A stretch of DNA of 64,000 bases from positions 186,001 through 250,000 of the forward strand of contig NZ_CP079110.1 in NCBI RefSeq assembly GCF_019357495.1, given 5' to 3'. A program made the translations under genes and the position numbers. Source of the DNA: Nosocomiicoccus ampullae. GTDB taxonomy: Bacteria > Bacillota > Bacilli > Staphylococcales > Salinicoccaceae. Below the pieces are notes generated by a model. It was not told the DNA's origin, made no database searches, and saw nothing but the letters and a program-made list of their open reading frames with translations. This document shows, piece after piece, positions 26,429 to 43,260 of the stretch; position 1 is the stretch's first letter; each line of letters begins with the position of its first letter.

Positions 26429-26650
26429 TAATTGAGTTGGAAAAGTTTATTTAACAAAATTGAGGCTGAAGGACCTTTATTTGTTAGATAAAAAGCTTTA
26501 TTTAACAAAATTCGCACGGTAATACTGAAATATGTTCAATAAAAAATTATATTTAACAAAAATCGTCATCTTTCTAAAATATATGTTAAATAAATCAATA
26601 TAATGAACAAAACCCGAGAAAAAGTGTTAAATAAAACATTTCTCGGGTTT
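26424..26650. repeat. Array of AT-rich palindromes (copy A)
   Basis: Left arms of the type TGTTAAATAAA occur at 26424 (degenerate), 26482, 26533, 26584 and 26625. Right arms of the type TTTATTTAACAAAA follow within about 20 bp in the first three units and a weaker one in the fourth. Between units are 20-22 bp of non-repeated sequence. The offsets 0, 58, 109, 160 and 201 are the same as in the copy at 43043. The gene-free stretch 26390-26660 holds only this array and two terminators. Confidence 0.75.
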
Positions 26651-26652
26651 AA
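26608..26652 (-). terminator. Hairpin downstream of moaC
   Basis: A 12-bp stem, AAACCCGAGAAA (26610-26621) with TTTCTCGGGTTT (26639-26650). The 17-base loop contains the last unit of the palindrome array. On the minus strand the stem is followed by TTTTGTT. Confidence 0.7.
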
Positions 26653-26660
26653 AATTATAT

Positions 26661-35740: not shown

Positions 35741-35782
35741 AAAAGCGTCTAAAACGGATATCCGCTTTAGACGCTTTTTTTA
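35738..35782. terminator. Strong bidirectional terminator
   Basis: Stem AAAAAAGCGTCTAAA-CGGA with TCCG-TTTAGACGCTTTTTT (35739-35777), almost 20 bp with one internal mismatch, between convergent genes. Confidence 0.93.
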
Positions 35783-35789
35783 TTATTTA

Positions 35790-36047
35790 CTAGCCTCGTT
35801 TTTTAAGGGCACTAAAGATAAATGATACAATTAAGATTAAGATAATTGCACCAAGTAATGTACCAACGATACTCATACCGCCAACTGTTGGTCCAATATC
35901 TAATCCGAGTGCGTTACCAATTGACGCACCGATTAAACCTGCGATGATGTTACCAATCACACCACCTGGAATATCTTTACTAATAATTGCTCCGGCGATC
36001 CAACCAAGGATACCACCGACGATTAATGTCCATAACCAACCGAACAT
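35790..36047 (-). CDS. GlsB/YeaQ/YmgE-type small membrane protein
   Basis: An 85-residue glycine-rich protein. The start is ATG 36047 with GGAGGGAA upstream, not the earlier ATG 36062. Three hydrophobic segments carry the family pattern: GGILGWIAGAIISK, GGVIGNIIAGLIGASIG and a final helix ending in FSALKKRG. Members are often induced by cell envelope or general stress; their molecular role is not known. Confidence 0.88.
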   Translation of the reverse strand: MFGWLWTLIVGGILGWIAGAIISKDIPGGVIGNIIAGLIGASIGNALGLDIGPTVGGMSIVGTLLGAIILILIVSFIFSALKKRG

Positions 36048-43003: not shown

Positions 43004-43007
43004 TATA

Positions 43008-43040
43008 GTCCCGTAAGGTATTACCTTACGGGATTTTTTG
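43008..43040 (+). terminator. Terminator after recQ
   Basis: Stem TCCCGTAAGGTA (43009-43020) with TACCTTACGGGA (43022-43033) and a T6 run. Confidence 0.93.
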
Positions 43041-43042
43041 TG

Positions 43043-43260
43043 TGTTAAGGGGTGTAACGAATGGAGTTATTAACAAAATTGACGTGAGAAATCTAAGATT
43101 TGTTAAATAAAATTGTTTATTTAACAAAAATTACTTGTATAAACTAAAATATGTTAAATATAATCATATAATTAACAAAATCTTGGTTGATTTAAGAAAA
43201 TATGTAAATTAATTAGCGTTATCTTACAAAAACAACTTAAAACTGTTAAATAAAATTTAG
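43043..43260. repeat. Array of AT-rich palindromes (copy B)
   Basis: Left arms TGTTAAATAAA or close variants start at 43043, 43101, 43152, 43203 and 43244, the same offsets (0, 58, 109, 160, 201) as copy A. The best unit is TGTTAAATAAAATTG joined to TTTATTTAACAAAA (43101-43129). Spacers of about 20 bp differ from copy A except near unit borders. The rest of the gene-free 43004-43387 interval holds the recQ terminator, an unremarkable AT-rich stretch (43261-43346) and the terminator of the minus-strand permease. Confidence 0.75.

Follow-up and report, generated by a model that had tools for sequence, protein, structure and literature searches.

A genus-restricted intergenic repeat of Nosocomiicoccus in which palindrome arms and their spacing are under purifying selection

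Directly behind the terminator of a RecQ-like helicase gene, the 64,000-nucleotide window (the whole stretch of DNA analysed here) carries an intergenic array of palindromes, copy B, that resembles a second array in the window, copy A. These arrays raise the question of whether their spacing is maintained, and for what. The original prediction described arms at identical offsets of 58, 51, 51 and 41 bp in both copies and attributed them either to common descent with selection on spacing or to fairly recent copying of an element of roughly 220 bp. On recount, the offsets of 51, 51 and 41 bp agreed base for base between copies A and B (Table 1), and further copies of the array were present elsewhere. 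A palindrome pattern allowing up to 3 mismatches matched the window 7 times, compared with 0.12 matches expected in shuffled sequence. The offset of 58 bp did not hold. The site at 43043, taken as the first arm, reads TGTTAAGGGG in copy B and TGTTTTAATT at the same offset in copy A, and agreed with the arm at 6/10 and 5/10 bases in these copies and at 1-4/10 bases in the other eleven copies checked in this genome. No 58-bp spacing occurred among the arm-to-arm distances of the family. Thus, the resemblance at this site is due to chance, and the true outer-left feature is an inverted half-site. The third unit of copy B, at 43203, was as decayed as had been claimed. It reads TGTAAATTAATTAG... 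here and TGTAAATTAATTAGAG... in the sister species, with arms unchanged between the two, so that the decayed variant is old and has been kept.

Table 1. Features of copies A and B and of a site without the element, in window positions
Feature	Position	Strand	Remark	Basis
Intrinsic terminator of upstream RecQ-like helicase gene	43007..43035	+	directly before copy B	gene name from ORF translation
Copy B outer left half-site TTATTAACA	43067..43075	-	right-type arm, 34 bp ahead of P1	sequence; offset recurs in other copies
Copy B spacer S0	43076..43100	.	25 bp; family-wide 25 or 15	
Copy B palindrome P1 TGTTAAATAAAATTGTTTATTTAACA	43101..43126	.	arms identical in sister-species orthologue	pattern match
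Copy B spacer S1	43127..43151	.	25 bp; length fixed, sequence free	
Copy B palindrome P2 TGTTAAATATAATCATATAATTAACA	43152..43177	.		pattern match
Copy B spacer S2	43178..43202	.	25 bp	
Copy B palindrome P3, diverged arms TGTAAATTA...TATCTTACA	43203..43228	.	sister species carries same diverged arms	
Copy B spacer S3	43229..43243	.	15 bp, about one helical turn shorter	
Copy B outer right half-site TGTTAAATA	43244..43252	+	left-type arm	sequence
Copy A	26448..26633	+	half-site 26448-26456 TATTTAACA, P1 26482-26507, P2 26533-26558, P3 26584-26609, half-site 26625-26633	
Lost site	35741..35800	.	element in Ca. N. stercorigallinarum and N. massiliensis orthologues; here only a short terminator region	

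The anatomy of the element was defined from copies in three Nosocomiicoccus genomes: that of the window (G000), that of the sister species Ca. N. stercorigallinarum (G001) and that of N. massiliensis (G002), each species being represented by a single genome and two of the three genomes being drafts. Followed in a single orientation, the element is made up of a half-site (TATTTAACA type), 25 or 15 bp, P1, 25 bp, P2, 25 bp, P3, 15 bp and a second half-site (TGTTAAATA type). Each of the three palindromes spans 26 bp (9 + 8 + 9; TGTTARATA-N8-TAWYTAACA) and recurs at a pitch of 51 bp, the eight 9-bp half-sites of an element forming three inverted pairs and two outer half-sites. The fixed distances of 51, 51 and 41 bp correspond to approximately five, five and four helical turns at 10.2 bp per turn. 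Across the family, arm-to-arm distances were 51 bp (166 cases), 102 bp (74), 41 bp (52) and 92 bp (52), with a few of 50 or 101 bp and almost nothing else, and the only common spacer lengths were 25 and 15 bp. Alignment of 42 copies from the three species was gap-free over 152 columns. The information content was 1.78 bits in the arms versus 0.60 in the spacers. P1, P2 and P3 are each distinguished by centre and arm variants seen again at other loci (such as TGTTAGATAAAAA... in P2), indicating descent of whole elements rather than chance assembly. The duplicating unit is longer than this core, at about 235-266 bp, and is found in tandem in N. massiliensis. No clear helical phase was apparent in the distances that separate tandem elements. 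Some arrays have a 50-bp pitch or decayed units (at 886, 646 and 1415 kb), and the constraint is thus not absolute. In copy A, the last half-site sits in the loop of the minus-strand moaC terminator stem CCCGAGAAA...TTTCTCGGG (window 26612-26655).

Approximately 16 arrays were found in the 1.55 Mb genome of the window (dnaA at the start of contig 1), in intergenic positions. Array numbers were similar or larger in the two sister species, with more in N. massiliensis, whose copy number is a lower bound because contig ends often fall within arrays. The palindrome pattern was enriched in Nosocomiicoccus only, its three genomes having 41, 42 and 81 forward matches, and was at background elsewhere. 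Of 157 genomes from the order, 3 had two palindromes at the exact pitch, and a reversed control gave 0 matches. A three-palindrome pattern, searched against a collection of 84,980 species with one genome each that may omit the window's own genome, was found only in Nosocomiicoccus massiliensis NP2 and Candidatus N. stercorigallinarum. The genome of the window accordingly belongs to a further species of the genus, probably N. ampullae. There was no match to the array patterns in the phages, plasmids and viral contigs searched, and no earlier description of the element was found in the literature searched. By the patterns used, the element family is found only in Nosocomiicoccus, small bacteria related to the staphylococci, and nowhere else in public collections.

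Within the genome of the window, the 14 arrays classified by the orientation of their neighbouring genes were distributed among 6 convergent, 7 co-directional and 1 divergent setting, so that the bias toward convergent pairs (6/14) was weak. The upstream plus-strand terminator and convergent setting noted in the original prediction are therefore features of copies A and B, and not of the family as a whole. The majority of arrays are found at the 3' ends of genes or in the gap of a convergent pair, and the neighbouring genes have no common function. A few lie upstream of genes, including a TM2 gene after the 1386 array and a LytTR-type gene before the 885 array. No near-exact solitary palindromes were found in this genome outside arrays or array fragments. 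A NERD-domain (nuclease-related) gene is located between the 1384 and 1386 kb arrays (G000 C1:1385.05-1385.96 kb; L025 2154-3065), and arrays of N. massiliensis also lie near such a gene.

Selection on the element was measured in 14 orthologous array pairs from the window's genome and G001, the flanks of which were mostly 91-96% identical. In these pairs, 30/754 arm sites differed (4.0%), compared with 229/1594 sites in spacers and palindrome centres (14.4%), 273/2567 sites in neighbouring intergenic DNA (10.6%) and a divergence of 7.3% in nearby coding DNA. Arms were less diverged than the free columns (spacers plus centres) in 13/14 pairs (arms versus free columns overall, p = 8e-16), and copies A and B each had 0/54 arm changes. 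Insertions and deletions were distributed in a different manner: there were 3 such events in free columns (229 substitutions), 2 in arms and 50 in neighbouring intergenic DNA (273 substitutions), corresponding to 0.013 indels per substitution in free columns versus 0.183 in intergenic DNA (p = 9e-10). Gene conversion among copies would not be expected to spare 9-bp arms while 25-bp spacers drift. The low divergence of the arms and the rarity of spacer indels demonstrate that the half-sites and the distances between them are under purifying selection and that the spacer sequence is not. The orthologue comparison thus bore out the proposal that the copies share descent and that their spacing is selected.

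Repeats between bacterial genes are commonly regarded as mobile relics or as RNA hairpins, and the position of many arrays after gene ends would suit an RNA structure at transcript 3' ends, formed either by hairpins of P1-P3 or by stems joining a right-type arm across a spacer to a left-type arm. Standard pairs were present in 83% and 79% of cells in two hairpin sets; however, some 80% of cells are paired because the arms are inverted repeats. The consensus fold reached only -0.35 kcal/mol and contained no compensated pair, the stems across spacers scored below shuffles, and variable arm positions mostly changed on one side only. The covariation score of the palindrome stems was slightly above shuffles (11/500 shuffles reach the score), a level that relatedness could explain. 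A mutual-information scan of the element detected no helices, its top pairs resembling relatedness, and no Rfam family matched the window at the gathering threshold. Further, the orientation of the element relative to genes is not fixed, and 'loops' of a fixed 25 bp free of indels are not expected of RNA. A role in 3'-end RNA structure, one of those suggested in the original prediction with covariation as its check, is accordingly disfavoured and we regard it as highly improbable. A coding repeat with a 17-codon unit (51 = 3 x 17) was rejected, as the best frame contained stops in 31/44 copies. The absence of convincing compensatory pairing and of a kept reading frame places the constraint on the DNA letters and their spacing. 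A CRISPR array was also rejected: the repeats vary in arms and centres, there are three units per array, and the spacers are partly common to duplicates. The neighbouring genes that were read look unrelated to cas. The published genome of N. massiliensis lists 0 CRISPR repeats (PMC3910558).

At most array sites in the window's genome, the element was also present at the same place in G001, and at several in N. massiliensis too, at about 78% DNA identity. Other sites differed between species. In addition to the lost site in the window (Table 1), two further sites carry tandem copies in N. massiliensis and none in the window's genome. Near-identical copies at 1464.6 and 1465.8 kb of the window's genome flank two small ORFs, and G001 has one copy there and lacks the ORFs. 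These ORFs (G000 C1 near 1464.9-1465.4 kb; L028 ~2310-2800) encode a 71-aa bacteriocin-like product followed by a 59-aa hydrophobic one, neither of which matched a Pfam or NCBIfam family. One G001 copy consists of a single palindrome between two half-sites, exactly two units having been lost. Because the occupied sites vary from one species to another through gain and loss, none of them is individually essential, and this turnover together with local copying makes a mobile or recombinational ancestry of the element likely. Another tandem array, unrelated to this element and built from an exact 52-bp unit, AAAGAGATAGTGCATAGTTACACTATGACTTGCGATAAAGCGCCGTCTATCC, was observed with 8 copies in the window's genome (C1:299615-300029; L126 716-1130) and 6 in G001 (L128 3109-3420); at this position, N. 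massiliensis carries the 51-bp-pitch element, in three complete copies and a partial one. Elsewhere in N. massiliensis, the end of an IS3-type transposase gene, judged from its sequence only, is no more than about 100 bp away from an array (G002 contig C2, L073 1-300) of four full palindromes and one partial one, an insertion beside or into the array.

Collectively, the orthologue data separate a constraint on length from a constraint on sequence: the DNA between sites changes faster than neighbouring intergenic DNA, and its length almost never changes. Changing sequence at fixed length is what one would expect to see where a protein complex counts helical turns. Judged from the layout, proteins that assemble along a single face of the helix would be expected to give rise to the five-turn distance of 51 bp, the outer half-site at four turns and spacers of either 25 or 15 bp. 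The element probably serves as a DNA platform on which a sequence-specific binding protein occupies several sites, and is more likely a chromosome-structural node than the operator of one promoter. Protein dimers would bind each palindrome on one helix face and assemble across neighbouring palindromes, giving a compact or bridging nucleoprotein complex. Such a complex could act as a node in the structure of the chromosome, in folding, in bridging, as a domain boundary or in a similar role. Among the roles listed in the original prediction, multimeric protein binding or chromosome organisation is thus favoured but unproven. The arrays would offer a testable handle on a chromosome-scale DNA-protein system in one small genus.

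A structural node is preferred to an operator because the arrays are intergenic in all gene orientations and the motif occurs almost only within arrays. The few arrays upstream of genes, such as the TM2 and LytTR-type genes, would fit ordinary local operators of one regulator; however, most arrays are at gene 3' ends or in convergent pairs, their neighbours have no function in common and genes are not preceded by near-exact single sites, making a regulon of this kind very unlikely. The mixed orientations, the unrelated neighbours and the absence of near-exact single palindromes outside arrays favour a structural complex. Known operators were also considered. Rex- and BirA-like half-sites read TTGTTAA, and sites of this type were rejected, as the 14 bp between half-sites here do not fit these motifs.

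Two further explanations invoke DNA rearrangement. The family could be an interspersed mosaic repeat, MITE- or BOX-like, that originated as a non-autonomous mobile element, spread in a Nosocomiicoccus ancestor, possibly by a transposase acting at the arms, and is now mostly inert. Such an origin is supported by the many copies dispersed between genes, the tandem copies found locally in N. massiliensis, places occupied in one species and empty in another, and the recent duplication bracketing two small ORFs. However, inert relics would decay evenly, whereas copies that have not moved keep their arms and distances while the rest drifts. The outer half-sites are inverted, but no autonomous partner was present in the loci read. 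No clean target duplication was detected at element-lacking sites, the intergenic flanks there having diverged too far for a duplication to be delimited, and the phages, plasmids and viral contigs searched contained no copies. The suggestion of a non-autonomous mobile element therefore accounts for the local duplication and turnover of the family but leaves the constraint at unmoved sites unexplained, and we consider an inert mobile repeat unlikely as the full account. Less probable again is that a site-specific recombinase uses the palindromes as accessory or crossover sites, in a res-like layout of three dimer sites about five turns apart. The three 26-bp inverted dimer-type sites per element, outer spacers that differ by one helical turn, changes in length by whole 51-bp units and the presence of genes between pairs of direct copies would accord with this reading. 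Against it, the serine resolvase domain PF00239 had no match in G000 or G001 (the control was positive in 10/14 genomes), and none of the tyrosine recombinases, three in G000 and two in G002, was tied to arrays. Purifying selection at scattered sites is also unexpected for recombination sites in direct orientation, which would not be kept because recombination between them would delete genes.

For the favoured protein-binding platform, a candidate binder is encoded between the 885 and 886 kb arrays by a 154-aa gene (C1:885619-886080; L020 2217-2681). This gene is present in all three Nosocomiicoccus genomes at 90-91% identity and was absent from every other genome searched in its family. Some members of two other families in the order have relatives with about 29-36% identity, and no such arrays lay beside the six to seven relatives read. 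The protein matched no Pfam, NCBIfam or PHROG family. Its structural model had a pLDDT of 52.6 at first and of 78.6 with a small alignment, and in the latter model the C-terminal half aligned to MarR-type winged helices (best Z 7.8, rmsd 2.7, 67 residues), although a Z of this level can also reflect merely a common arrangement. A Foldseek match of the model was not significant (E 0.64). The 154-aa protein is thus a candidate binder and a lead only, its C-terminal half predicted to be winged-helix-like at a level below significance. It is a speculative and rather doubtful possibility that the genus possesses a restricted chromosome-architecture system of phased triplet sites and a dedicated winged-helix-like binder, perhaps the product of this gene. 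If true, a complete system of cis sites and protein would have newly evolved in a small 1.5 Mb genome.

Among described repeats, the element is a composite intergenic repeat in kind, of the BOX or BIME sort, that fails the structural hallmark of BOX. BOX elements of Streptococcus pneumoniae are described as structured repeats with predicted RNA folding that are thought to be mobile (PMC3049150). Like BOX, the Nosocomiicoccus element is modular, dispersed and intergenic, with a variable number of internal units and a restricted host range; unlike BOX, it lacks conserved pairing, and the constraint falls on arm letters and exact distances. BIMEs, the palindromic-unit arrays of enterobacteria, are named in the same work (PMC3049150). 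They likewise place several palindromic units in regular order between genes, whereas the arms here are AT-rich, the pitch is fixed at 51 bp and the spacers are length-locked. Some BIMEs bind gyrase or IHF. In the res site of Tn3/gamma-delta, three dimer-binding sites occupy about 114 bp, with one centre spacer nearly one helical turn longer (PMC9943657). P1-P2-P3 resemble res in layout only, as three inverted, putative binding sites with helical spacing, and differ from it in their equal 51-bp pitch and approximately 16 chromosomal copies in a genome, that of the window, in which a serine resolvase was not found. In Firmicutes, the parS/ParB and Noc sites are scattered palindromes to which a DNA-binding dimer attaches, whatever the orientation of the genes, and they are mostly single and short. 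With no sequence relation claimed, the Nosocomiicoccus palindromes are similarly dispersed and independent of gene orientation, but are organised as phased triplets with two outer half-sites.
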